Shown: positions 15,606 through 28,997 of the stretch, piece after piece
How the letters are laid out: each line of letters opens with the position of its first letter
Numbering within the stretch: position 1 is the first letter of the stretch
Assembly (NCBI GenBank): GCA_001829005.1
Contig: MIAG01000002.1
Location: forward strand, 378,837-442,836
Direction of reading: 5' to 3'
Length of the DNA: 64,000 nucleotides
Origin: Sphingobacteriia bacterium RIFOXYC2_FULL_35_18
GTDB taxonomy: Bacteria; Bacteroidota; Bacteroidia; Chitinophagales; Chitinophagaceae
Made by a program: the position numbers and the translations under genes
Notes under the pieces: model-generated
Database searches by the model: none
Told to the model about the DNA's origin: nothing
The model's input: only the letters and a program-made list of their open reading frames with translations

Positions 15606-16034
15606 TTAATACCTCAAACTTTTTACACTTTTCACCTCAGCAGCCAACATTTCTATGGTTTTGGAATCGAAAAGTTCTTGTAGTTCGCGCTTTATATTTT
15701 TATATTGAGCATGCATCGGGCAAGGGCTTTTTTCAGAACATTCTTTCAACCCTAAAACACATTTATCCAAAGTAGTACTCTCACCCATTGCATCTATGAT
15801 TGTACGAATTGGCAATTGTTTTGATTCATTGAGTAAAAAAAAACCGCCATTTGGTCCAGGGGTTGATTTTATGAGCTCTTTTTTAGTTAGAATTTGCAAA
15901 ATTTTAGCGGTAAAGTATTGAGGAGAATTAATTGCAACTGAGATTTCTTCAATACCCAACTTCTTGCTTAAAGAACTATTTTTTGCAATAAATATAGTGG
16001 CTCTTAAGGCGTACTCAGTTGCTTTGGAAAACAT
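15606..16034 (-). CDS. Rrf2-family regulator, IscR/NsrR-like, probably Fe-S and NO responsive
   Basis: A 142-residue winged-helix regulator opening FSKATEYALRATIFIAKN, with the wing PGPNGGFFL near residue 60. The cluster-binding loop has C92, C99, C105 and H108 (C-x6-C-x5-C-x2-H), close to the IscR three-Cys/one-His set and to NsrR. NsrR-type proteins lose their cluster on NO and derepress NO-handling genes. Its position as last gene of the NorC/NorB-like operon (start overlapping the NorB-like end by 20 bases) supports local regulation; the inverted repeat at 17797-17814 is the candidate operator. NO sensing itself is inference. Confidence 0.82.
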   Translation of the reverse strand: MFSKATEYALRATIFIAKNSSLSKKLGIEEISVAINSPQYFTAKILQILTKKELIKSTPGPNGGFFLLNESKQLPIRTIIDAMGESTTLDKCVLGLKECSEKSPCPMHAQYKNIKRELQELFDSKTIEMLAAEVKSVKSLRY

Positions 16035-17391
16035 AATAACTGCTTTTCGTTTGTTTCAATTTACAAACGAATTTAATTCTAATTAAAGGATAAACCACCA
16101 TGAATAATCCTATTGCCAAGAAAAATCCTGAGATAAAGAAGGCAATAAAATAGGGAGACAAATTTTGCATCATTATAGAATAACTTATTTGTAATTTACT
16201 CATTTGCCACATAGATTTTTCTAAACCTGCACCAATTAGACTCAACCAAAATACCAATAAGGAAATATTAACAATCCAATAGCCCCTAATAATTATTGCC
16301 TTATATTTTTCTACCCGTATGCATGAATCATTAAACACATCAATTACAATTGCCAATAATAAAAAAGTATTAATACCTATAGTGGCACCCATGGTATGCG
16401 CTACAGTTATATGAGTGCCATGGGTATATAAATTAATTCCTGGTATCGACATTAAAACAGCCAATAGAAGGGTCAAAAAAACCCAAAAATCAGCAGCTGC
16501 TAAAAACCGAAAAGACAAAATATTAAAGTTTCTTTTAGCGGTTGAAACGGTATTCCTCCAATTGAAAATTATTCGACCAATTAAAAACAATTCGGTCATA
16601 CTAACAGTATAGCTGATATGTTTTATATAAGGAGCAGTTGGCAATGTATAAATATGATGTCCCCAATTAAACATTAAATTAAAAAGACCAGTAAAATAGA
16701 GTACAAAAGCAATTTTTGAATAACTAATATCTTTATTGTTAGTGATTTTATCCATTAAAAAAATACTTGAACCGTATATTAACATATTCCAAGAGCCAAC
16801 CATTGAACCATAAGACTTCCATTGAACAGTCATATCATTGATGATATTATTCCTAAAATAAGGTAGCAACCATAAATAAGACTCAAGATAAGTGAACAAA
16901 AAAAACACAATACCAGTTAACCACATCCAAACATAAACAGGTTGATTTTTAAATCCCCCAAATGATTTTACGAAATTGAATAACAAAAAAATCCAACCAA
17001 AGAATATTGGCAAAGCCAAATAAGGGGGATGTTCCCAGTACTCTCTTCCGCCAAATCGTCCTAAGAAATAAGATATAATGATACTAACTACTGTCAATAG
17101 AAAAATGCAATATTGCAATAAGAGTAGTCGATAGGAATAAATAACGCGTTTAGTATGTTGTTGCAGATAGGTTAACATACTACCCAATCCAGCTAAAATA
17201 ATCCAAAAAACCACTGAAGAAACATGAAGTGGCCTAACCTTTTGAAAAGAAAAACGATCCCGCATTAATCCAGGAAAAATATATTGCAAACTTCCAGTTA
17301 TACCCCATAAAAGGCCAAAAATCAACAAACACAAAGCAGTCAATATATATAAATCAATAATGCTTTTTCCTTTATTGGTGTATGGTTCCAT
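16015..17391 (-). CDS. NorB-like heme-copper oxidoreductase subunit with altered metal ligands
   Basis: A 458-residue, about twelve-helix membrane protein of the NO-reductase branch. H56 (RPLH) fits the low-spin heme ligand; H245-H246 (WGHH) fit the paired FeB ligands; E267, 21 residues on, fits the conserved pocket Glu; H332 in THGTHITVAH fits the high-spin heme ligand. Two expected ligands are missing. The helix at residues 186-212 holds no His where cNorB has HLWVEG. Residue 334 is Met where cNorB has the second low-spin heme His (HGH reads HTM here). It overlaps the NorC-like gene by 20 bases. It may be an alternative NO reductase; the reaction is unproven. Confidence 0.75.
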   Translation of the reverse strand: MEPYTNKGKSIIDLYILTALCLLIFGLLWGITGSLQYIFPGLMRDRFSFQKVRPLHVSSVVFWIILAGLGSMLTYLQQHTKRVIYSYRLLLLQYCIFLLTVVSIIISYFLGRFGGREYWEHPPYLALPIFFGWIFLLFNFVKSFGGFKNQPVYVWMWLTGIVFFLFTYLESYLWLLPYFRNNIINDMTVQWKSYGSMVGSWNMLIYGSSIFLMDKITNNKDISYSKIAFVLYFTGLFNLMFNWGHHIYTLPTAPYIKHISYTVSMTELFLIGRIIFNWRNTVSTAKRNFNILSFRFLAAADFWVFLTLLLAVLMSIPGINLYTHGTHITVAHTMGATIGINTFLLLAIVIDVFNDSCIRVEKYKAIIIRGYWIVNISLLVFWLSLIGAGLEKSMWQMSKLQISYSIMMQNLSPYFIAFFISGFFLAIGLFMVVYPLIRIKFVCKLKQTKSSYYVFQSN

Positions 17392-17773
17392 TCGTATTAA
17401 TTGTAAATGTTCTAGGATCTGCTTTGCCTGATTGATCTACATCCTTTAAGTATGCCAATAATTCTTCTATTTCCGAATCAGTCAAATCCATATTAGGCAT
17501 GATATTGGTTCCACCCCTAAGTATTGCACTTATATAGACTGCCCCCTTTTTTGAATAAACGTTGGTTAAATCTGGACCCAAATACCCACCCAGCCCATAA
17601 ATTTGATGGCAACTAATACAGTTTTTTTTTTGCCAAAGTATTTTTCCATCGTCTGCTGCTTGTGAAACAGCTATTTGCTTAACAGGTAATGAGTTGTACA
17701 GCTGAAATGTATATATTATAAAACCTCCCACTAAAAACATTGCCAAAACATATTTATTTCTATCTGAAAACAT
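17372..17773 (-). CDS. NorC-like membrane-anchored mono-heme cytochrome c
   Basis: A 133-residue protein with one N-terminal membrane anchor (YVLAMFLVGGFIIYTFQLY) and a periplasmic class I cytochrome c domain. Heme attachment is C52-I-S-C55-H56; M92 in IMPNMDL is the likely distal ligand. The surrounding KILWQKKNCISCHQIYGLGGYLGPDLTNVY pattern, given here as the block at residues 44-73, is close to NorC, the electron entry subunit of cytochrome c NO reductase. First gene of the minus-strand operon, followed by the NorB-like subunit with a 20-base overlap. It should deliver electrons to that subunit. Confidence 0.85.
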   Translation of the reverse strand: MFSDRNKYVLAMFLVGGFIIYTFQLYNSLPVKQIAVSQAADDGKILWQKKNCISCHQIYGLGGYLGPDLTNVYSKKGAVYISAILRGGTNIMPNMDLTDSEIEELLAYLKDVDQSGKADPRTFTINTNGTIHQ

Positions 17774-17796
17774 AAAATTTAAATTATCTAATAATT

Positions 17797-17814
17797 AAGG
17801 ACAAATGTATCCTT
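17797..17814. promoter_or_regulatory. Candidate operator between the divergent NO operons
   Basis: An inverted repeat AAGGA-N8-TCCTT. Its eight central bases are exactly the minus-strand -7 box, and it lies seven bases upstream of the plus-strand -7 box, covering where that promoter's -33 element would be. One bound regulator could therefore block both directions. The Rrf2 protein encoded at the end of the minus operon is the obvious candidate; binding is inference. Confidence 0.5.
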
Positions 17815-17834
17815 TATTATTATATTTGCCCAAA
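17802..17834 (-). promoter_or_regulatory. Promoter of the norC-like operon
   Basis: Read on the minus strand, TTTG (17834-17831) and TACATTTG (17809-17802) are separated by 21 bases. The NorC-like start codon lies 28 bases further on. Confidence 0.55.
17821..17828 (+). promoter_or_regulatory. -7 box of the nod-like gene
   Basis: TATATTTG matches TAnnTTTG and lies 16 bases before the ATG. No TTTG is present 19 bases upstream; that place is taken by the inverted repeat, suggesting controlled expression. Confidence 0.55.
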
Positions 17835-17844
17835 ATTTCCCCTC

Positions 17845-20124
17845 ATGTTCAAAAGAAACCTGGTAGAATATTTATTAAACCCGAAAAATTGGTGGCTTCC
17901 ACTACTCATAATTTTTGTTATAAGTATGGGTGGGGTTACCCTAATAGGAGTTCATACTTACACAGAAGCTCCTCCAATACCAAATTTTGAATCAACTCAA
18001 AAGAAAAAAATCTATAGCAAAAATGATATTTTAGATGGCCAAGCAATCTTTTTGAAATATGCATTAATGGAGTATGGAAGTATGTTCGGTGATGGTGCAA
18101 ACAGAGGACCAGATTTTACTGCTGAAGCGCTGCATCTTATAGCTGCAGAAATGAAAAATTATTATACTACTAACAGCCCAAATAATTTAACGGATTCCTT
18201 TTTTAAATATGGCATAACTGAAAAAGTTAAATACGAAATTAAAAAAAACAATTATCAAGAAATAACCAATAGTGTTGAATTAAACAAAGCTCAAGAATTT
18301 GCTATAATAAAACTAGAAAATTATTATTTAGAAAAATTCACAAATCCAATGAGCAAGGGTGCATTTAAACCTGCTGGATATATTACAGATAGTGTTGAAA
18401 TTAAATCATTAACAGCCTTCATTTTTTGGGGATCATGGGTATGCGGAGTAGAAAGGCCAGGAGAAAATTATAGCTACACACATAATTGGCCCTATGATAA
18501 AGAAGCAGGGAACACTCCAAGTGCTGCAATTATTTTATGGAGCATTTTGGGATCTTTAGGTTTAATAATAGGCCTAGGTCTTGTTTTGTATTATTACGGA
18601 AAATTAGAGAAAATAGAAGATGAAACTTTTACGAAGAAGGCCCCGAATTTTATGTCCTTTAAAGAGATTGAATTATTCAAACCCAATTCAGTTCAAATAA
18701 GTACATATAAGTTTTTCTTTACAGCAATCATTCTATTTTTAATCCAAGTATTATCTGGAATTTTAACTGTTCATGACTTTGTTGGTTTTGTACACTTTTT
18801 TGGATTTAATATCTCAGAGAGTTTACCTATTACAGTAACGAGAAGCTGGCATGTGCAATTATCTATATTATGGATTTCAGCATGTTGGATTGGAGCCTCA
18901 TTCTTTATGATGGATTTAGTTTCTCCGAATCAACCTAAATATCAAATAAAACTTATAAATGTATTATTTTGGATAACCATATTAATGGTTGGAGGGTCAG
19001 TTGTAGGACTATTTTTAGGACCTAAAGGTATCATTGGAGAGAATTGGTACTGGTGGGGACACCAAGGCTGGGAGTATATGGAACCAGGAAAAATTTGGCA
19101 AATACTTTTAGGTATCATATTTATACTTTGGGCAATCATTATTTATAGAGGTGTAAAACCTGTTATGAAAATCAAACAACCTTGGGCTTTACCCAACTGG
19201 CTAGTCTATGCAACTTTTAGTATTATCATTTTACTTGTTTCTGGTTTTATTTCAACACCCAAAACAAATTTTGTTATTGCTGATTTTTGGAGGTGGATGG
19301 TTGTTCATATGTGGGCTGAAGCATTTTTTGAAGTATTTACAACAGTTCTAATTGGGTACTTCATGGTTGTTATGGGATTGGTTAATAAAAATGCAGCAAT
19401 AAGGGTTATATATTTAGCTACCCTTCTATTTCTAGGATCGGGATTATTAGGCATTTCACATAATTTTTATTGGAATGCAAAGCCTGTATTTACAATGGCT
19501 TTGGGATCAGTATTTTCAACACTACAAGTTGTTCCTCTAATATTATTGACACTTGAAGCATGGAGATTTAGTAAACTACCAAAGGTTTTAGAAACTTCAA
19601 ACAATATAAAATTTACACAAGACAAATTTGGCTTTAGCGAAGTATTTCTTTTTTTAGTTGCAGTTAACTTCTGGAACTTTTTTGGAGCTGGTCTAATGGG
19701 ATTTATTATAAATCTACCAATTGCCAACTATTATGAACATGGTACGTATTTAACAGTAAATCATGGTCATGCTGCACTTATGGGCGTTTATGGAAACTTA
19801 GCCATTGCTTCAATATTATTTTGTAGTCAATTATTAATAAAACACAATTCATGGAATGCTCAATTAATTAAATTGTCGTTTTGGTCAATCAATATTGGAT
19901 TGTTGCTAATGGTCCTCTTAGATTTATTTCCCGCTGGAATTTGGCAATTCAATACTGTTGTAGAAAAAGGCCTATGGTATGCTAGAAGTGCAGATTTTAT
20001 TGAAAGCAATGGATTTCAAACATTAACCTGGCTTAGAATAATTGGCGGATCAGTATTTACAATTGGTGGAGTCATTCCTTTAACATGGTTTATAGCAAGT
20101 AGAATTACTAAACTTAAAAAGTAA
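17845..20124 (+). CDS. nod: Nitric oxide dismutase (Nod)-like protein of the qNOR family
   Basis: A 759-residue, about 14-helix protein. Like qNOR it has an N-terminal membrane helix, a periplasmic domain ending VERPGENYSYTHNWP, and a NorB-type core. Kept residues: H336 (low-spin heme), H488 with E492 and E496 in VVHMWAEAFFE (FeB), H539, and H640/H642 in NHGHAA. Changed residues: the second paired FeB His is N540 (HN, not HH), and the pocket Glu 21 residues on is Q561 (FSTLQ, not FSALE). At the quinol site, the Glu four residues after H310 is G314, and the Asp of the C-terminal PGD motif is G735. These are the substitutions described for NO dismutase (2 NO to N2 plus O2), so quinol-driven NO reduction is unlikely. 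Catalysis is inferred, not shown. Confidence 0.87.
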   Translation: MFKRNLVEYLLNPKNWWLPLLIIFVISMGGVTLIGVHTYTEAPPIPNFESTQKKKIYSKNDILDGQAIFLKYALMEYGSMFGDGANRGPDFTAEALHLIAAEMKNYYTTNSPNNLTDSFFKYGITEKVKYEIKKNNYQEITNSVELNKAQEFAIIKLENYYLEKFTNPMSKGAFKPAGYITDSVEIKSLTAFIFWGSWVCGVERPGENYSYTHNWPYDKEAGNTPSAAIILWSILGSLGLIIGLGLVLYYYGKLEKIEDETFTKKAPNFMSFKEIELFKPNSVQISTYKFFFTAIILFLIQVLSGILTVHDFVGFVHFFGFNISESLPITVTRSWHVQLSILWISACWIGASFFMMDLVSPNQPKYQIKLINVLFWITILMVGGSVVGLFLGPKGIIGENWYWWGHQGWEYMEPGKIWQILLGIIFILWAIIIYRGVKPVMKIKQPWALPNWLVYATFSIIILLVSGFISTPKTNFVIADFWRWMVVHMWAEAFFEVFTTVLIGYFMVVMGLVNKNAAIRVIYLATLLFLGSGLLGISHNFYWNAKPVFTMALGSVFSTLQVVPLILLTLEAWRFSKLPKVLETSNNIKFTQDKFGFSEVFLFLVAVNFWNFFGAGLMGFIINLPIANYYEHGTYLTVNHGHAALMGVYGNLAIASILFCSQLLIKHNSWNAQLIKLSFWSINIGLLLMVLLDLFPAGIWQFNTVVEKGLWYARSADFIESNGFQTLTWLRIIGGSVFTIGGVIPLTWFIASRITKLKK

Positions 20125-20610: not shown

Positions 20611-21069
20611 GTGACAAGCAAAAGAAACGCAAAAAAAGTTAAAGAATCCGTTACAGTAAAAACAGAAATTGTATTCCCCAACGATACAAATCCTATGGGG
20701 ATTTTACTGGGAGGACGACTTGTTGAATGGATGGATATTGCAGCTGCGATTACCGCGCAAAATCATGCAGAAAATATATGTGTAACAGCACAAATCAATA
20801 ATATCAAATTTGAACACTCTTCTCAAGTTGGAGATATAATTCATATTACAGCTAAAATAACAAGAGCATATAATTCTTCAATGGAAATAATAGTAATCGC
20901 AGAATCAAGAAAATCCGTCAACTCAAAGAAACAGCAGATTGCAATAGGTTATTTTACTTTTGTAGCAATTAATAAAGTAGGAGAAGCAACTATAGTTCCA
21001 AAATTAATGCCAATTACAAAATTAGAAAAGCAACTGTTCAACAGCGCTTTAAATAGAAAATTTAAATAA
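20611..21069 (+). CDS. Hotdog-fold acyl-CoA thioesterase
   Basis: A 152-residue acyl-CoA hydrolase of the YciA/BACH type. FPNDTNPMGILLGGRLVEWMD is the family's active-site block (conserved Asn and Asp flanking MGxxxGG) and FEHSSQVGDIIHI its second conserved strand. It starts with GTG three bases after the DGC gene; no ATG exists before the active-site block. The substrate and the reason for its place in an NO cluster are unknown; detoxifying or recycling CoA thioesters is only a guess. Confidence 0.85.
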   Translation: MTSKRNAKKVKESVTVKTEIVFPNDTNPMGILLGGRLVEWMDIAAAITAQNHAENICVTAQINNIKFEHSSQVGDIIHITAKITRAYNSSMEIIVIAESRKSVNSKKQQIAIGYFTFVAINKVGEATIVPKLMPITKLEKQLFNSALNRKFK

Positions 21070-21078
21070 TTTATTTAT

Positions 21079-22326
21079 ATGCATATTGAACAAATTGAAT
21101 TGTTATCGCCAGCAGGCTCTTTTGATTGTATTATTGCTGCTATTAAAGCTGGTGCAAACTCAATTTATTTTGGTGTAGAACAATTAAATATGAGATCATG
21201 TTCATCAAATGGCTTTATTATTTCAGATATAAAAAAAATAAAGAAAATATGTAAAGAAAATAAAGTTAAAGCATATTTAACTTTAAACAGTATCATATAT
21301 GGTCATGATATTCAATTACTCAGAAAAATTTTAGATGAAGCTAAAAAAACAAAAATTGACGCCGTTATAGCAGCAGATTTTGCTGTGATAAACCTATGCA
21401 AAGAGCTCGAGATTCCGTTACATATTTCAACACAAGCAAATATTAGCAATATAGAATCAGTCCGCTTTTTTGCACAATATGCAGAAACAATTGTTCTAGC
21501 AAGAGAATTGACTTTAAAACAAATAGCACAAATAAGCAATGCGATTATAAAGGAGCAAATTACTGGCCCATCAGGATACTTAATTAAAATTGAAGTATTT
21601 ATTCATGGCTCACTATGCATGGCAATATCAGGTAAATGCTATCTGAGTCTTCATAGTCATCAATCTAGTGCAAACAGAGGAGCTTGTATTCAAAACTGCA
21701 GGAGAAAATATATAGTTAAAGACCTAGATACAAATGAAGAATTAAAAATTGATAATGAATATATAATGTCACCAAAAGACTTATCTACAATAAATATTTT
21801 ACCTGAAATAATCAATTCAGGTGTATCAATATTAAAAATTGAAGGTAGAAGTAAAGGGTCTGATTATGTGTATAAAACAACCAAATGCTACAAAGAAGCA
21901 ATTATATCCATAAAAGAAAACAAATACAATAGATACGCCATAAGAAAATGGACCAAACAATTATCCACAGTTTATAATCGTGGTTTTTGGAATGGATATT
22001 ATTTAGGTCAAAAATTAGGAGAATGGACTTCAGTTGCTGGATCAATTGCAGAAGAAAAGAAAATATTACTTGGCAGAGGCGAAAAGTATTATCCAAAAAT
22101 TAAAATTGCTGAATTCAAAATAGAATCGGGCACAATAAAAAAGGGCGACACTATAATCATATCTGGAAAGCATATTGGATTCAAAAAAATAAAACTTGAA
22201 AAACTTTATGTAAACGGAACTGAAAGCGCTACGGCTAATCCTGGAGATAAAATCACTTTTCCCCTAAAAGATAAAATAGTTGCCAATGATAAAATATATA
22301 AAATTATAAAAGAAACACATGTTTAA
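21079..22326 (+). CDS. Peptidase U32-family protein (TrhP/YegQ-like)
   Basis: A 415-residue U32 protein. The N-terminal TIM-barrel-like part opens ELLSPAGSFDCIIAAIKAGANSIYFG, and the family signature EVFIHGSLCMAISGKCYLS is at residues 172-190. C180, C187, C203 and C207 are candidate [4Fe-4S] ligands. The C-terminal strand-rich part (GTIKKGDTIIISG) is the accessory domain of the tRNA-hydroxylation relatives TrhP/RlhA rather than of short UbiU/UbiV. Well-studied U32 proteins are oxygen-independent hydroxylases that use prephenate, not peptidases. Its last eight bases overlap the ferredoxin gene. Substrate unknown. Confidence 0.82.
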   Translation: MHIEQIELLSPAGSFDCIIAAIKAGANSIYFGVEQLNMRSCSSNGFIISDIKKIKKICKENKVKAYLTLNSIIYGHDIQLLRKILDEAKKTKIDAVIAADFAVINLCKELEIPLHISTQANISNIESVRFFAQYAETIVLARELTLKQIAQISNAIIKEQITGPSGYLIKIEVFIHGSLCMAISGKCYLSLHSHQSSANRGACIQNCRRKYIVKDLDTNEELKIDNEYIMSPKDLSTINILPEIINSGVSILKIEGRSKGSDYVYKTTKCYKEAIISIKENKYNRYAIRKWTKQLSTVYNRGFWNGYYLGQKLGEWTSVAGSIAEEKKILLGRGEKYYPKIKIAEFKIESGTIKKGDTIIISGKHIGFKKIKLEKLYVNGTESATANPGDKITFPLKDKIVANDKIYKIIKETHV

Positions 22327-22540
22327 GATAATCCATTATAGAACCAAATGTATTGGATGCGGAATATGCTATGAAATTGAACCAATTTTATGGAGGATAT
22401 CTAAAAAAGATGGAAAAGCAACACTACTTAATTCAGAATCAAAAAAAGGAATTTGTATAAGATCAGTTAATGAGTCATTTAGGCTTAAATCTGTAAATAT
22501 AGCAAAAGCATGCCCTGTTAAAATCATTAAAAATTTATGA
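22319..22540 (+). CDS. Small single-cluster ferredoxin
   Basis: A 73-residue ferredoxin with C11-x2-C14-x2-C17 and C65-Pro, the ligand set of one [4Fe-4S] cluster, plus an extra C46. It probably carries electrons to a neighbouring enzyme; the U32 protein, the PNPOx-like flavoprotein and the large nitronate-monooxygenase-like protein are the candidates. Overlaps of 8 bases with the gene before and 4 (ATGA) with the gene after indicate translational coupling. Confidence 0.85.
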   Translation: MFKIIHYRTKCIGCGICYEIEPILWRISKKDGKATLLNSESKKGICIRSVNESFRLKSVNIAKACPVKIIKNL

Positions 22541-22965
22541 ATTCACTGATAATTGATTTTATAAAAGACCAATCATGTGCTAGCATCTGCTATATTGACC
22601 TTGTGGGTAAACCTCAATGCTTTAATTGCATGTATGGTTTCGATTTTGAAAACAATTATTTATTATTTAAGTCTTCCAACGATTCATATCATTCAAAAAA
22701 TATCACTCCAAACAGTCTTATAGCAGGAACAATTTTGCCAAACAAATTAATGCCATTTCAAAATATTGGTATACAGTTTAACGGAATTACGTTAAGTACT
22801 GATCAAAACCTTAAAGAAAGAATAAACACCAACTATTATATAAAAAACCCTTTATCAATAGCAATCCCAGGAAAAATTTGGCTAATACAGTTAAATAAAA
22901 TAAAAATGACAGGAAAACTAAAAGGATTTGGACAAAAAATAACCTGGGAGAGATCCACTAATTAA
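22537..22965 (+). CDS. PNPOx-like split-barrel flavoprotein
   Basis: A 142-residue split barrel of the pyridoxamine-phosphate-oxidase-like superfamily: CASICYIDLVGKPQCFNCMYGFD is the usual first hairpin, and YLLFKSSNDSYHSKNI is the FMN-phosphate-binding strand with its Lys/Ser/His set. FMN (or F420-like) binding is inferred from the fold. Three cysteines lie in the first 30 residues. The start ATG overlaps the ferredoxin stop. Possibly an NO- or nitro-compound-linked reductase, but nothing specific can be read. Confidence 0.75.
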   Translation: MNSLIIDFIKDQSCASICYIDLVGKPQCFNCMYGFDFENNYLLFKSSNDSYHSKNITPNSLIAGTILPNKLMPFQNIGIQFNGITLSTDQNLKERINTNYYIKNPLSIAIPGKIWLIQLNKIKMTGKLKGFGQKITWERSTN

Positions 22966-22973
22966 TTCTAAAT

Positions 22974-24779
22974 ATGCAGTATCCCGAAATTCACCATTTT
23001 CATATTCCTGTTATGGGAATAGCATTTACCATTGATAGTCCAATTAAAGTAGCTAAGTATGGAATTTCATCAGTAATCTCTATAGTAGAGGATAAATTAA
23101 TAGAAATGATGAGAGAATATTATTACCCCCAAATAAAACAACCATATATTCCAATTTCTAAACAAGAGCCAAACTATAGAGCAAATAGAATTACCGACTA
23201 TTTGAATCTTGTAAACTCAATTGTACAAACACAAATTGAAAAAATCAAAAAAGCTTCTTTTGAAAAAGGATCTGAAATAGTAAAATATTTTGAGCTTTTA
23301 CCCGACGATTCAATGCTTAAAAAATTATACTTGCAAAGTGTTGGAACAACCGACTTAAACGAAAAAATAAAAATTGAAGAACTCTTAAGGAATCAAGTTA
23401 CTCCAGGTAGCATTGATGTAAATATTATGACAAAAATTGACAGAGATCTATATAAAAATGGCGAAATAGTACAAGATGAATCAGAAGCTTTAGAGGCTTT
23501 AAAGGGATATGCAAATAGTAATCTTAAAAACTCTTCTGTCATTTTTTCAGCAGGTATGAATCCTAGATTATACAATTACTTAGCCAATTTAAGAGAATTC
23601 GAAATTAATAAAGACGGAACATTTAATAAAAAAGTGATTGTAAAAGTAAGTGACTACAGATCCGCATTAATTCAGGGAAAATACTTAGCAAAAAAAGGAG
23701 TTTGGGTAAGTGAGTTTAGAATTGAGTCAGGCATAAATTGCGGAGGACATGCTTTTGTAAAAGACGGTGTTTTATTAGGTCCAATACTAGAAGAGTTCAA
23801 AATAAATAAAAGAACTTTAGTTGCAACATTATTCGAATATTATAATGTTGCATTATTAGAAAAAAATAAGAATGCGCTTAACAGACCTCCTATCATCAAA
23901 TTTTCGGTTCAAGGAGGAATTGGCGAGTACCAAGAAACACAACTATTAAGAGATTATTTCAATATTGATAGTACAGGCTGGGGGACGCCATTTTTATTGG
24001 TGCCAGAAGCCACAACTGTTGATAGCAAAACTTTAGAATTACTTTGTAACGCTAAACAAGAAAATATTTTCTTAAGTAATCATTCACCACTAGGCGTTAA
24101 ATTTCACTATCTAAAAAACAGCTCAAGTGATATTGAAAAAAAAGAAAGAATCATGAGCGGAAAATTTGGAAGTCCATGTACTGAAAAACATTTGGCACTA
24201 AATACTGAATTTACAAAAGAACCCATTTGTACGGCTTCCAAAAAATATCAGAAACTAAAACTTGAACAATTAAAAACACTTCAACTTGATGAACAAGTTT
24301 ATCAACAAAAAGTAAATGAAGTTTTAGAGAAAGAGTGTTTATGTATTGGGTTAAGTAATTCAGCTTCTTTAAACTATAATGTTGATTTTGTAAAACCCTT
24401 AAATGCAGTAACCATTTGCCCTGGGCCAAATATTGTTAACTTCTCTAAACAAGCTACGCTTAAACAAATGGTTGATCATATATATGGCAGAACAAATTTA
24501 ATTAAAAATAGCAACAGAGTTCATATGTTTATTGCAGAACTCTATTTATATATAGACTATTGGAAAGATCTACTAGAACAAGATTTTAAAAACAACCTAC
24601 TATCCAAAAACACAAAAAACCATATCGCCTTTTTCGCCAATTTAAAGAAAGGGATACGGTTTTATGAGTCATTAAAACCAAACATAAATAAAAACGTTTC
24701 GCGTTTTGCTAAAGAATTAGCCTGTGCTGAAGTAGAAATTGATTATTTGAATTATAAATATGCTATTATTCAAAGTTAG
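22974..24779 (+). CDS. Large nitronate-monooxygenase-like protein of unknown function
   Basis: A 601-residue protein with no confident family name. Several blocks echo nitronate monooxygenase/2-nitropropane dioxygenase flavoenzymes: HFHIPVMGIAFTIDSPIKVAKYGISS at 9-33 (opening strand and helix), ESGINCGGHAF at 251-261 (like the GIEAGGH loop), FSVQGGIGEYQ at 310-320 and GWGTPFLLVPEA at 335-346 (like the phosphate-binding GGI and GTxFL loops). The region from 390 on is extra and contains C402, C419, C455, C457 and C482, possible metal or cluster ligands. Last gene of the plus-strand run, nine bases after the flavoprotein. It may be a flavoenzyme acting on a nitro or NO-derived compound (inference). 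Confidence 0.55.
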   Translation: MQYPEIHHFHIPVMGIAFTIDSPIKVAKYGISSVISIVEDKLIEMMREYYYPQIKQPYIPISKQEPNYRANRITDYLNLVNSIVQTQIEKIKKASFEKGSEIVKYFELLPDDSMLKKLYLQSVGTTDLNEKIKIEELLRNQVTPGSIDVNIMTKIDRDLYKNGEIVQDESEALEALKGYANSNLKNSSVIFSAGMNPRLYNYLANLREFEINKDGTFNKKVIVKVSDYRSALIQGKYLAKKGVWVSEFRIESGINCGGHAFVKDGVLLGPILEEFKINKRTLVATLFEYYNVALLEKNKNALNRPPIIKFSVQGGIGEYQETQLLRDYFNIDSTGWGTPFLLVPEATTVDSKTLELLCNAKQENIFLSNHSPLGVKFHYLKNSSSDIEKKERIMSGKFGSPCTEKHLALNTEFTKEPICTASKKYQKLKLEQLKTLQLDEQVYQQKVNEVLEKECLCIGLSNSASLNYNVDFVKPLNAVTICPGPNIVNFSKQATLKQMVDHIYGRTNLIKNSNRVHMFIAELYLYIDYWKDLLEQDFKNNLLSKNTKNHIAFFANLKKGIRFYESLKPNINKNVSRFAKELACAEVEIDYLNYKYAIIQS

Positions 24780-24808
24780 CACCAGTTAAGAAACTGGCGC
24801 TAACTTTG
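24771..24808. terminator. Hairpin shared by two convergent gene ends
   Basis: A 38-base inverted repeat: 10 bp outer stem, one A-C mismatch, 6 bp inner stem, loop AAGA. It covers the last codons and stop of the plus-strand 601-residue gene and of the minus-strand tryptophanase. It lacks a long T-run on either strand, so it is probably a bidirectional terminator or 3'-end stabiliser. Confidence 0.6.
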
Positions 24809-26159
24809 CAGTAAAATGTCTTAATACTGGTTGTTCAGATGTGATGACCAACCCCTTTAAAGCATCTCGCTTTTTATACACTTCAATTATTACTTCAGCA
24901 ACATAATCAATATGACTTTGTGTATAAACACGTCTAGGAATTGCTAGTCGTACTAATTCCATTTGTGCTGGAATTAATTGATTCATAGAATCGTATTTAC
25001 CAAACATTAAAGAGCCTATTTCAACAGCCCTTATGCCTCCTTCAATAAACAACGCGGTCACTAATACTTGTCCTGGGAATTGTTCAATAGGAATATGAGA
25101 AAGAAACTGTTTAGCATCTAAATAAACAGCGTGACCACCTGCAGGTTGCATTACAGGAATATTCTCTTTGATTAGTTTGTTGGTCAAATACTCAATACTA
25201 TTAATCCTATATTTCAAATAATCTTCTTGTAGCACTTCTTTTAAACCAATTGCAATCGCTTCTAAATCACGGCCAGACAATCCTCCATATGTTGTAAAAC
25301 CTTCGGTTAAAATCAATAAATTTTTACACTTATTAGATAAGTCCTCGTTATGTAATGCTAGAAATCCACCCATATTAGCAAAAGCATCCTTCTTTGCACT
25401 CATAGTACAACCATCTGCATAAGAAAACATTTCTTTCGCAATTTGCTCAACAGAACTATCAGCATATTTTTTTTCACGTAACTTAATGAAATAACAGTTT
25501 TCAGCGAAACGACAAGCATCCAGGAAAAAAGAGATTCCATTCAATTTGCAAATATTTTTTACATCAATTATATTTTGCATGCTAACAGGTTGACCTCCAC
25601 CAGAATTGTTCGTTACTGTTAAGATGCAAATTGCAATATTATCTGCCCCATTTTTATCAATCAAACTTTTAAAAGCTTCAATATCTAAATTACCTTTAAA
25701 GTCGGATGGAACATTTGGCAATTTCCCTTCAGGACAAAGTAAATCTACCCCAATAGCACCTGATGCTTCAACATTAGCCCTCGTTGTGTCAAACAATGTA
25801 TTACTTACTACCATTTTTCCTTTTGCGCCCAAAACACTAAAAAGTATTTTTTCTGCAGCCCGTCCTTGGTGGGTTGGAATAATAAAAGGCATATTTGTCA
25901 AATCCTTTACCGTATTTTCAAAACGAAAAAAGCTTGGACTGCCAGCATAAGATTCATCTCCAATCATCATACCTGCCCATTGACTACTACTCATAGCACT
26001 AGTTCCACTATCTGTTAACAAGTCAATTAATACTTTTTCTGCAGGAATTAAAAATGGATTATAAAATGCATCTTTAATAATTTGTACGCGCTCTTCAACG
26101 GTAGTAATAAATATTGGTTCAACCGATTTAATTTTAAACGGTTCAATAATCGTTTTCAT
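24786..26159 (-). CDS. Tryptophanase / tyrosine phenol-lyase family beta-eliminase
   Basis: A 457-residue PLP enzyme that by family splits tryptophan to indole, pyruvate and ammonia (or tyrosine to phenol). The PLP lysine sits in TMSAKKDAFANMGG; IPTHQGRAAE is the phosphate-binding block; FFLDACRFAEN supplies the Asp and Arg of the cofactor site; GGHAVYLDAKQF is a conserved C-terminal motif. I cannot separate TnaA from Tpl from motifs alone; TnaA is the likelier for Bacteroidota. It converges on the NO block and ends within the shared hairpin. No indole or tryptophan permease lies beside it. Confidence 0.88.
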   Translation of the reverse strand: MKTIIEPFKIKSVEPIFITTVEERVQIIKDAFYNPFLIPAEKVLIDLLTDSGTSAMSSSQWAGMMIGDESYAGSPSFFRFENTVKDLTNMPFIIPTHQGRAAEKILFSVLGAKGKMVVSNTLFDTTRANVEASGAIGVDLLCPEGKLPNVPSDFKGNLDIEAFKSLIDKNGADNIAICILTVTNNSGGGQPVSMQNIIDVKNICKLNGISFFLDACRFAENCYFIKLREKKYADSSVEQIAKEMFSYADGCTMSAKKDAFANMGGFLALHNEDLSNKCKNLLILTEGFTTYGGLSGRDLEAIAIGLKEVLQEDYLKYRINSIEYLTNKLIKENIPVMQPAGGHAVYLDAKQFLSHIPIEQFPGQVLVTALFIEGGIRAVEIGSLMFGKYDSMNQLIPAQMELVRLAIPRRVYTQSHIDYVAEVIIEVYKKRDALKGLVITSEQPVLRHFTAKLAPVS

Positions 26160-26263: not shown

Positions 26264-28516
26264 TTACACTTTCCCCAACTCCTTCAAATAAGGCTGATTG
26301 TACAAACGTTTACCCGTTGCTTTATACAAGGCATTTGCTACTGCGGCAAACACAGGTGGGAAAGGAGGTTCACCTAATCCAGTTGGATCAATATTATTCT
26401 GCACAAAATGCACATCAATTTTCTTAGGCGCTTCTCTATGACGAATGATTCTATAATTATTTAAATTCTTTTGAACGGTCGCGCCCTTCTCTAAAATAAG
26501 CTCTCCATATAAAGCATTTCCAATTCCATCAACCACAGCACCTTCTACCATATTCTTTGCTCCTTCAGGATTCACAACAAAACCACAATCCATGGCTGTA
26601 ACTACTTTTTCTACATAAGGCTGTCCATTCTTCATTGTTACATCTACCACATGAGCGGCATAAGATGCATGACAAAAATAAGCCGATACCCCACGCTTCG
26701 CATTTTTACTAGCAGTGCTTCCCCAGTTAGATTTTTCCTTCAACAATTCCAATACAGCAATAAATCGATCTGCATTGTAATCATTATTTTTGCCAACAGG
26801 ATTTGCTTTTGCTTTCTTCAACATTTCAATACGAAAATCCAAAGGATCTTTCCCAACTGTTTCCGCTAATTCATCTAAAAATGATTGTTCTGCACTTGCA
26901 TTGAAATTAGAACGAGGTGCTCTGTAAGCGCCAATCGTAATATTCGAAGGCATATCCCAACTCTCCGCTAAATAATTGTCAAATACGCCTGCAGGAAAAC
27001 GATTTTCATGCAATGGACTTTCTGGTATTCCACCTCCTATTACATGAATAGCAGTTACATTATTGTCTTTATCAATAGCTGCTTTATAGGTCATGATATA
27101 AGTAGGTCTATAAATACCATTGGTTAAATCATCCTCTCTAGTATATATTAATTTAACCGGGGCTTTTACTCTCTTAGAAATATGTCCGGCTTCTACAATA
27201 TAATGTCCATAAGCCCTGCGGCCGAAACCACCACCCATTCTGGCCAACTTCATTTCAATTTGCTCTGGCTTAATATCTAAATTGGAAACAATATTTTGTT
27301 TCATCATTTCAGGTATTTGAATAGGTGCTACAAAAAAAGCTTTTTCATCGGTAATATGCGCCACACAGCTAATGGGCTCCATTGGATTATGCGCTAAAAA
27401 TGGAGCAGTATAGGTTCTTTCTAAAACTTTTGTTGCATTTTTAAACGCCGTTTCAGGATCTCCATCTTTTCTAGCTACACGAGTAGGCTTTTTTTGCATT
27501 TCATGCATTAAGCGCAAATGGTTTTCAGTGCTCTCTAACCCTGCAGGAATAATTTCTTCTCTTTTGCCGCCTCTTGCCATCACCATTTCCTTGGTATCTT
27601 GAATAGGCTCCCATTGAGCTACCACTTTCTTTCGCGCGTTCATGACTTCCCAAGTAGAATTACCCACAACGGCAATCAATTTATTAAAAGCACGTGTATC
27701 AAAACCTGCTTTAGCATAACCATCTTTATACACCTGAAAATCAAAAACAGCTTTTATACCAGGCATCTTCAATGCTTCTGTTGCATCAAAAGATTTTAGC
27801 TGCATGCCAAATGCAGGAGGATGTATGACCATGGCAATTAACATCCCTTCCATTTTATAATCTAAGGTGAAAAGGGATTCACCACCCACAATTTCCTTAC
27901 CCACTTTATTTTTCTGCGGAGTCCCCAATAATGTAAAATCAGCGTTCTTTTTCAACTCTACTTTCTCAGGCTTGGGCAATTTTGATGCTGCAGTTGCTAA
28001 AGCACCATAGTTCGCAGACTTATTCGATGCTTTATGCATCACTACTCCTTTAAAAACAGTTAGCTCAGACATTGGCACTCCCCATTCGTTGGATGCAGCT
28101 TGCATCAATAGAAGTCTGGCCGTTGCACCAGCTGTTCTTAATGGCTTCCAAGCCATGGCCATAGCCCTGCTACCCCCTGTAAATTGGCTCTTAAATCGAG
28201 GGGTGTCATAATCCCCCATTTCTACAATTACTTTACTCCAATCTGCTTCTAATTCTTCATTCACCATCATGGGCAATGAAGTCATCACATTGGTTCCAAA
28301 CTCTGGATTCGGATTAAATATTTTTACTTGGTTATCGGGAGTGATTTTAATAAATCCAGTAAGCTCCACCCAATCCATTTTATCAGTAGCTGCGGCTATT
28401 GCTTCATTAGGAATTAAATTAGCAAACCAACTAAATCCAATCATCATTCCACCTCCAGTTAAAGAAGTAACTTTTAGGAATGAACGTCTGCTTTGATTAT
28501 TATTTGCGTTTTTCAT
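26264..28516 (-). CDS. Molybdopterin-binding hydroxylase large subunit (IorB-like, Tat-exported)
   Basis: A 750-residue large subunit of the xanthine-oxidase family, isoquinoline 1-oxidoreductase beta type. The N-terminus carries a twin-arginine signal (QSRRSFLKV, then a hydrophobic stretch). MARMGGGFGRRAYGHY is the molybdenum-cofactor binding block, GAYRAPRSNFNA a substrate-channel motif, and GLGEPPFPPVFAAVANAL, at the end, holds the catalytic Glu (GLGE). It would hydroxylate an aldehyde or N-heterocycle in the periplasm. It forms a pair with the [2Fe-2S] subunit eleven bases upstream; no FAD subunit is present, as usual for IorAB. Confidence 0.88.
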   Translation of the reverse strand: MKNANNNQSRRSFLKVTSLTGGGMMIGFSWFANLIPNEAIAAATDKMDWVELTGFIKITPDNQVKIFNPNPEFGTNVMTSLPMMVNEELEADWSKVIVEMGDYDTPRFKSQFTGGSRAMAMAWKPLRTAGATARLLLMQAASNEWGVPMSELTVFKGVVMHKASNKSANYGALATAASKLPKPEKVELKKNADFTLLGTPQKNKVGKEIVGGESLFTLDYKMEGMLIAMVIHPPAFGMQLKSFDATEALKMPGIKAVFDFQVYKDGYAKAGFDTRAFNKLIAVVGNSTWEVMNARKKVVAQWEPIQDTKEMVMARGGKREEIIPAGLESTENHLRLMHEMQKKPTRVARKDGDPETAFKNATKVLERTYTAPFLAHNPMEPISCVAHITDEKAFFVAPIQIPEMMKQNIVSNLDIKPEQIEMKLARMGGGFGRRAYGHYIVEAGHISKRVKAPVKLIYTREDDLTNGIYRPTYIMTYKAAIDKDNNVTAIHVIGGGIPESPLHENRFPAGVFDNYLAESWDMPSNITIGAYRAPRSNFNASAEQSFLDELAETVGKDPLDFRIEMLKKAKANPVGKNNDYNADRFIAVLELLKEKSNWGSTASKNAKRGVSAYFCHASYAAHVVDVTMKNGQPYVEKVVTAMDCGFVVNPEGAKNMVEGAVVDGIGNALYGELILEKGATVQKNLNNYRIIRHREAPKKIDVHFVQNNIDPTGLGEPPFPPVFAAVANALYKATGKRLYNQPYLKELGKV

Positions 28517-28526
28517 TTGCTAAAAA

Positions 28527-28997
28527 TTATTTTTTAGATGATTTAGCTGCTTGTTGAATAGCTGCTTTGATTCTTAAATAAGTTCCACACCTGCAAATAT
28601 TACCTGTCATGGCAGATTCTATTTCAGCTTCTGTGGGATTGGGATTGCTTTTTAACAAAGCCACTGCAGACATGATTTGGCCCGTTTGACAATAACCACA
28701 TTGAGCCACATCTAGTTCTAGCCAGGCTTTTTGCACTGGATGCATTTCTTTTTCTGTACCCACAATTCCTTCAATGGTAGTAACTGCTTGTGTACCAACA
28801 GCCGATACAGGCAATTGACAAGAGCGCATTGCTCTGCCATTTAAATGCACGGTGCAAGCTCCGCAGGCGCCAACTCCACATCCAAATTTGGTGCCGACTA
28901 AATTTAAGTGATCTCTTAAAACCCAAAGCAAAGGAGTAGATGGATCTGCCTCTACTTGCAAAGGTTTACCATTTACTTTTAGTTGAAATTTTGCCAT
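28527..28997 (-). CDS. [2Fe-2S] subunit of the molybdenum hydroxylase (IorA-like)
   Basis: A 156-residue iron-sulfur subunit. The N-terminal plant-type cluster is held by CGVGACGACTVHLNGRAMRSC; the C-terminal helical cluster by CGYCQTGQ and NICRCGTY. Electrons go from molybdenum through both clusters to an external acceptor, normally a cytochrome. The length is standard. Encoded eleven bases before the large subunit and 51 bases after the FAD/Fe-S dehydrogenase gene. It has no Tat signal, so it would be exported with its partner. Confidence 0.93.
   Translation of the reverse strand: MAKFQLKVNGKPLQVEADPSTPLLWVLRDHLNLVGTKFGCGVGACGACTVHLNGRAMRSCQLPVSAVGTQAVTTIEGIVGTEKEMHPVQKAWLELDVAQCGYCQTGQIMSAVALLKSNPNPTEAEIESAMTGNICRCGTYLRIKAAIQQAAKSSKK

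Follow-up and report, generated by a model that had tools for sequence, protein, structure and literature searches.

A nitric oxide dismutase family gene facing a NorCB-like operon across a predicted common operator in a Chitinophagaceae genome

The residue pattern of nitric oxide dismutase (Nod) was defined for Methylomirabilis, strain HdN1 and Muricauda, a Flavobacterium (Ettwig 2012, PMC3413370), and in the available passages of that source these proteins are qNOR-like, have no haem c, carry Asn in place of an FeB His and Gln in place of the adjoining Glu, and possess a degraded quinol site. The exchange of His560 for Asn is given as consistent in nod in the relevant part of PMC10286720, nod is reported from Sediminibacterium and Algoriphagus MAGs in that of PMC10264387, and a Bacteroidota Nod clade, with NsrR-type regulators at some nod loci, is described in that of PMC13386854; the portion of PMC6636425 that was available holds no passage on residues or on Bacteroidota. 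Whether Nod makes O2 is still debated: according to the available part of PMC13386854, in which opposing results are cited, no Nod has so far been isolated and characterised.

Here we describe a nod locus of Sphingobacteriia bacterium RIFOXYC2_FULL_35_18 (Chitinophagaceae), situated in a 64,000-nucleotide stretch of contig MIAG01000002.1 (hereafter the window, to which all coordinates refer). The gene (17845..20124, plus strand) is an intact ORF with an ATG start, encoding a qNOR-type protein of 759 aa in which Pfam domains for NorB cytochrome c-like and COX1 sequences are found and from which any CXXCH haem-c motif, including an N-terminal one, is absent. Its nearest PDB chain is the Geobacillus qNOR 3ayf (E 1.3e-157), and with the qNORs as a group (3ayf, 8bgw, 6qq5 and that of Cupriavidus necator pHG1, L150) it shares domain order, fold and haem ligands but differs at the second FeB His, the pocket Glu, E332 and D746, all of which are altered. 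In the alignment with 3ayf the active site keeps H488, E492 and H539 (H559 in 3ayf), whereas N540 stands for H560 and Q561 for E581; in the quinol region H310 (H328) and F318 (F336) are kept and G314 and G735 take the places of E332 and D746. H336, H640 and H642 are also retained, as seen in the row alignment described below. The second paired FeB His has therefore become Asn, the Glu next to the active site has become Gln and quinol-site residues are substituted, as in Nod, and with N540, Q561, G314 and G735 the paired FeB His, pocket Glu, quinol Glu and C-terminal Asp of qNOR are all missing. These residue calls had been made in a preliminary description of the same DNA and were all found to be correct in the 3ayf and row alignments; its statement that they amount to the described NO dismutase pattern agrees with the definition in the available part of PMC3413370. 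It had also warned that generic annotation would miss the protein, which is borne out by the source names of homologues ("cbb3-type cytochrome c oxidase subunit I", "nitric-oxide reductase", "nitric oxide reductase subunit B") and by an NCBIfam scan that gave no match at E 0.001.

All 82 aligned Nod rows agree at the active-site residues H336, H488, E492, H539, N540, Q561, H640 and H642. These rows are the window plus 81 loci, two of which are L001, from the host genome itself, and L002, a nearly identical copy, and they include MAGs labelled Planctomycetota, Proteobacteria, Armatimonadetes and Chlorobiota, and N540 and Q561 recur in 13/13 additional full-length Nods of a family sample of 195 genomes, apparently Chitinophagaceae. 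With such conservation the residue pattern is not due to chance, and that across the 82 rows likewise rules out local drift or sequencing error. Over 735 columns the host Nod shows no difference from that of the MAG Sphingobacteriia bacterium 24-36-13. Changes at the quinol site are looser than those at the active site across the Nod rows: at position 314, 57 rows carry G, 18 N, 6 D and one H; at 735, 62 carry G and 18 A, and two are gapped; at 310, 17/82 carry N; and two additional Nods carry N, K and A at 310, 314 and 318. Eight qNOR controls were used, four drawn from the family sample and four being qNOR-type proteins of plasmids. In every one of them positions 539-540 read HH, 561 is E and 735 is D, and 314 is E in seven and D in one; none has the N540/Q561 combination.

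In a quick tree of 75 rows, none of them named NC10, from which the 10 diagnostic columns had been removed, 51 Nod rows fall into a single clade (SH-aLRT 98), 8 qNOR rows into another (82), and cNOR and NorBx (see below) stand apart with 99 each, the tree having long branches (CcoN, L152 and two NorBx rows) and letter make-up warnings on some rows, the window row included. Placement within canonical qNOR, which the preliminary description had named as the result that would speak against it, is ruled out by this separate clade, found even though the diagnostic columns were dropped. The clade takes in rows named Planctomycetes, Scalindua (Scalindua japonica, P0300), Rhodocyclales, Burkholderiaceae and Myxococcota, and a protein search with a Planctomycetota Nod query gave no NC10-named protein among the 120 matches listed. 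An ordinary qNOR that has undergone neutral drift at its active site would belong to the same fold family and might well show the observed 36-38% identity to the qNORs of the family sample, but the strict conservation of the altered residues over 82 rows across phyla and the separate clade make this explanation scarcely credible. By its sequence, the ORF at 17845-20124 is a member of the NO dismutase family. The Nod of Sediminibacterium, Algoriphagus and other Bacteroidota (in the available parts of PMC10264387 and PMC13386854) is of the same phylum and protein family as that of the window, and since Nod in Bacteroidota is already in print the enzyme itself is not new; the placing of a Nod in a Bacteroidota genome by the preliminary description is upheld as to family membership by residues and clade, and Muricauda was already included in the portion of PMC3413370 that was available.

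The nod gene faces an operon that the preliminary description did not mention, nor did it mention the palindrome in the gap between them. The operon, on the minus strand, consists of norCx (17372..17773), encoding a NorC-like cytochrome c of 133 aa with a CISCH motif, norBx (16015..17391), encoding a NorB-like haem-copper protein, and rrf2 (15606..16034), encoding an Rrf2-family regulator; norCx and nod start 71 bp apart on opposite strands, and norCx overlaps norBx, and norBx overlaps rrf2, by 20 bp each. NorBx was compared over 155 rows (149 distinct), made up of 120 listed database matches, the window and 34 locus frames taken above a score and length limit, with shorter or weaker frames excluded. 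The paired His and the Glu, i.e. the residues lost from Nod, are retained in 155/155 of these rows; the His and Glu that Nod retains are absent, and Met replaces one low-spin haem His. Position 194, the site of the first FeB His, is Y, N, L or M in all 155 rows, V stands at the E211 site in 153/155 and N at the E215 site (cNOR numbering). H56 is kept and M334 is present in 155/155 rows, in place of the bis-His ligation of low-spin haem b in cNOR, the ligation in NorBx being inferred from the alignment. In the ten rows aligned with cNOR the first FeB His, E211 and one low-spin haem His are missing in all. NorBx has a NorC partner and the cNOR/cbb3 fold, as cNOR does, but not the three FeB His plus E211, and compared with cNOR (4xyd, 3o0r) the first FeB His, E211, E215 and the second low-spin haem His have all been changed. 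As far as alignments can tell, it is a strictly conserved haem-copper family whose ligand set is unlike that of any NOR compared. As its members are named at source, for example, cbb3-type cytochrome c oxidase subunit I or nitric oxide reductase subunit B, the family may be miscounted in gene surveys. Two NorBx matches, L120 and L136 (genomes G052 and G089), contain an in-frame stop and are perhaps decaying copies or assembly errors.

The host genome (3.3 Mb, 13 contigs) contains, away from nod, nirK and a nosZ cluster; ORFs resembling NosD, ABC transporters and globins, named by reading their translations, belong to the latter. Four COX1-type proteins were found in the genome: an aa3 oxidase accompanied by its operon, a CcoNO fusion of cbb3 type (both oxidases typed by reading motifs), Nod and NorBx. 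Searches of the host genome gave no match for canonical cNOR, no second match to the Nod query (qNOR included) and none for ODP flavodiiron protein, the last search matching 8/14 controls. By these cNOR, qNOR and ODP flavodiiron searches, no ordinary respiratory NO reductase was found in the host. No oxygen-using enzyme was recognised adjoining nod.

The divergent intergenic region between nod and norCx (17774..17844) is 71 bp long and contains the palindrome AAGGACAAATGTATCCTT (17797..17814), which is predicted to be the operator of the Rrf2 regulator; extended to 30 bp, it agrees with its own reverse complement at 24 positions. The Bacteroidota -7 element has the consensus TAnnTTTG. It is matched on the plus strand by TATATTTG (17821..17828), the predicted nod promoter, and on the minus strand, inside the palindrome, by TACATTTG (17802..17809), the predicted norCx promoter. 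The Rrf2 protein has the three cluster cysteines of NsrR (C92, C99 and C105), scoring 28.2 bits against the NCBIfam NsrR equivalog, far below the cut-off of 182, and the palindrome, of pattern AAGGAYA-N4-TRTCCTT, is unlike the NsrR operator consensus gATGyAT-N5-ATrCATc published in the part of PMC1274295 that was available.

Among 80 Nod loci, 4 of which have no usable upstream stretch, and with nod starts set by alignment to that of the window, this pattern lies upstream of nod with at most one mismatch in 17 of the 76 usable loci and with at most two in 26 (8 exact, 9 with one and 9 with two mismatches); 25 of these 26 sites are 27-65 bp before the start and one is at 222, and at 50/76 nods no palindrome with at most two mismatches is found within 250 bp upstream. 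The remaining 1.37 Mb of the Nod loci hold 26 sites at up to one and 57 at up to two mismatches, a background rate at which about 0.4 and about 0.9 sites, respectively, would be expected in the nod-upstream stretches. When the 64-kb window was shuffled, 75 of 100 shuffles had at least one site with two mismatches or fewer, so that one such site in 64 kb is in itself nothing remarkable, although the window's own site has 0 mismatches. No other exact match to the pattern exists in the 3.3-Mb host genome, and two further candidates with one mismatch (L155 and L156) both lie within ORFs and were rejected. In the loci of relatives it precedes rrf2, norCx, the gene of a 601-aa protein (see below), genes for RIC/ScdA, for hemerythrin and for a multicopper-cytochrome c protein, and nrdD or the adjoining nadA, a set that fits an NO/anoxia regulon, some members of which (nrdD, nadA) are oxygen-independent enzymes. 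In the host no exact palindrome precedes nirK, nosZ or other genes, and a wider NO regulon is for this reason unsupported there. That the linked Rrf2 protein binds the palindrome and that NO is the signal we infer from their linkage, from its three Cys and from the genes concerned.

Genome counts, which ignore kinship and make any Fisher p value indicative only, gave within the 195 genomes of the family sample NorBx in 33, Nod in 15, nosZ in 96, nirK in 32, cNOR in 5 and qNOR in 4; the nirS search matched none of the 195, which does not establish absence, as control genomes likewise gave no match. The Nod query had matched 19 genomes; 4 of them were excluded as qNOR, each having HH/E/D at 36-38% identity, and of the 15 remaining Nods 14 are complete in length and carry N540 and Q561, that of G142 being a 285-aa fragment that ends short of both. 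All 15 Nod-bearing genomes possess nosZ (14 above the family cut-off, G059 by two fragments below it), compared with 81 of the 180 others. An N2O route is thus possible, and a pathway that simply bypasses N2O is not favoured; the association would also fit an N2O-making Nod, or merely a shared niche. The Nod-clade protein could accordingly be a detoxifying NO reductase that makes N2O, with electrons arriving by a non-canonical route and NosZ finishing the work, a reading that would suit not only the nosZ count but also the absence of any canonical NOR match from a host with nirK and nosZ, the retention of H310 and F318 in the quinol region and an NO-type regulator with its operator. It would, however, have to operate with a second FeB His and a pocket Glu lost in 82/82 rows and kept in 8/8 qNOR controls, and with E332 and D746 equivalents lost in the window and kept in 7/8 and 8/8 controls, respectively, and we regard it as possible though somewhat unlikely.

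Nod and NorBx are separable: 27/33 NorBx genomes of the family sample lack Nod and 9/15 Nod genomes lack NorBx, the two being found together in 6/195 (Fisher 0.024) and adjacent in 4. NorBx (at least 40% identity) lies near nod in 15 of the 80 Nod loci, head to head with it in 6 of these, and canonical cNOR is present in five other loci. In a phylum sample called by identity alone, where 24 of 28 matches to the Nod query (31-37% identity) were taken as qNOR, NorBx was rare, being found in 5/296 genomes, and Nod (at least 56% identity) was found in 4/296, both together only in the host. nosZ is present in 26/33 NorBx genomes against 70/162 without NorBx in the family sample.

These counts bear on another explanation, that NorCBx is the genome's real NO reductase and that Nod acts as a sensor or in an auxiliary role. 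In its favour, every NorBx row keeps the paired His and Glu, a NorC-like partner is present, and of the 33 NorBx-bearing family genomes 8 have nosZ and 3 have nirK at a distance of about 11 kb or less from NorBx, while 24 have no cNOR, qNOR or Nod by the searches used. Weighing against it are the loss of the first FeB His, E211 and one low-spin haem His from all ten cNOR-aligned rows and the fact that two of the three genomes with NorBx near nirK also carry cNOR there (79-80% identical to a canonical one); as both stand a few kb apart in these two genomes, NorBx is not simply a replacement for cNOR, and we consider the explanation improbable. The loci concerned, L123 and L124 (genomes G159 and G082, of one genus), contain NorBx, a canonical-type cNOR and nirK within about 10 kb.

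NO dismutation appears to be the likeliest single function of the window Nod. The fuller proposal, that Nod turns 2 NO into N2 and O2 in the membrane and, under an Rrf2 repressor predicted to sense NO, is co-induced with its NorCB-like partner, is one on which we find belief and doubt about evenly balanced. Two NO molecules would bind between haem b3 and the metal held by His, His and Asn, and Gln for Glu together with the want of a proper quinol site would preclude electron and proton uptake for N2O formation; since these electrons and protons could not be taken up, Nod would disproportionate NO. At the level of control, NO would damage the Fe-S cluster of Rrf2, which would then leave the palindrome and free both promoters. 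More tentatively, NorCBx, fed by cytochrome c, might handle NO reductively or serve as an electron- or NO-binding partner, with a two-His-one-Glu centre as its site, and the cell might split NO between O2 formation and N2O formation, NosZ consuming the N2O. A broader reading joins Nod and NorCBx in one two-enzyme NO module, i.e. haem-copper paralogues that would be co-induced from one operator and would each have lost the opposite half of an ancestral FeB site, Nod disproportionating NO to N2 and O2 and NorCBx consuming NO or passing electrons at a centre with a His/Met-ligated haem and two His and one Glu; this we put forward only tentatively, as it is rather unlikely to hold in full.

In comparison with the Nods of Ettwig 2012, as represented in the available part of PMC3413370, the window Nod belongs to a nirK- and nosZ-bearing Bacteroidota host with no methane monooxygenase recognised beside nod, and its gene is transcribed away from a NorCB-like operon, a palindrome lying between the two. 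What appears to be new is the co-located and predicted co-controlled NorCBx, with a complementary rewired site, in a host in which no recognised NO reductase was found. The available parts of PMC10264387 and PMC13386854 contain no mention of a NorCBx partner, a DGC fusion (see below) or an operator, and no published account of the nod/norCx-norBx-rrf2 arrangement was found, though recent work may already cover NorBx or such loci. If the two-enzyme reading is true, the host would be a denitrifier from nitrite to N2 without a canonical NO reductase. Genomes of this type lend themselves to a clean test, as the NO step between those of nirK and nosZ, for which these searches gave no canonical NOR, has two candidate genes at a single locus, and named strains carrying Nod include Hydrotalea flava CCUG 51397, Flavihumibacter solisilvae 3-3 and Algoriphagus alkaliphilus DSM 22703.

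Downstream of nod, and on the same strand, lie genes for a DGC-domain protein (PF08859; 20233..20607; in 15/80 Nod loci), a 4HBT thioesterase (20611..21069; in 8/80), a U32 family protein (21079..22326; in 5/80), which is kin to TrhP/UbiU and under their curated cut-offs, a YhbP-like protein (22537..22965; in 11/80), also under the curated cut-off, and a 601-aa protein (22974..24779; in 23/80). In Flavihumibacter solisilvae a protein of the same DGC family as that following the window nod is fused to Nod (L006 39-2717, P0114). The 601-aa protein has no Pfam or NCBIfam match and no PDB match by single sequence, and its profile gave only a stray best match in the PDB (E 0.012); its predicted FabX/nitronate monooxygenase fold, matched to FabX by structure only, and its conserved Cys, six of them invariant, would make it possibly a flavin and Fe-S enzyme. 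Further along are a beta-eliminating lyase family protein (24786-26159), a cluster with the same Pfam family (one member scanned) occurring in 9/80 Nod loci, and the genes for a molybdopterin-binding oxidoreductase large subunit and an adjoining 2Fe-2S subunit (26264-28997). A family of about 415 aa, one scanned member of which had no Pfam match, recurs with nos genes and NorBx in seven loci (L131, L132, L135, L136, L139, L143 and L145).
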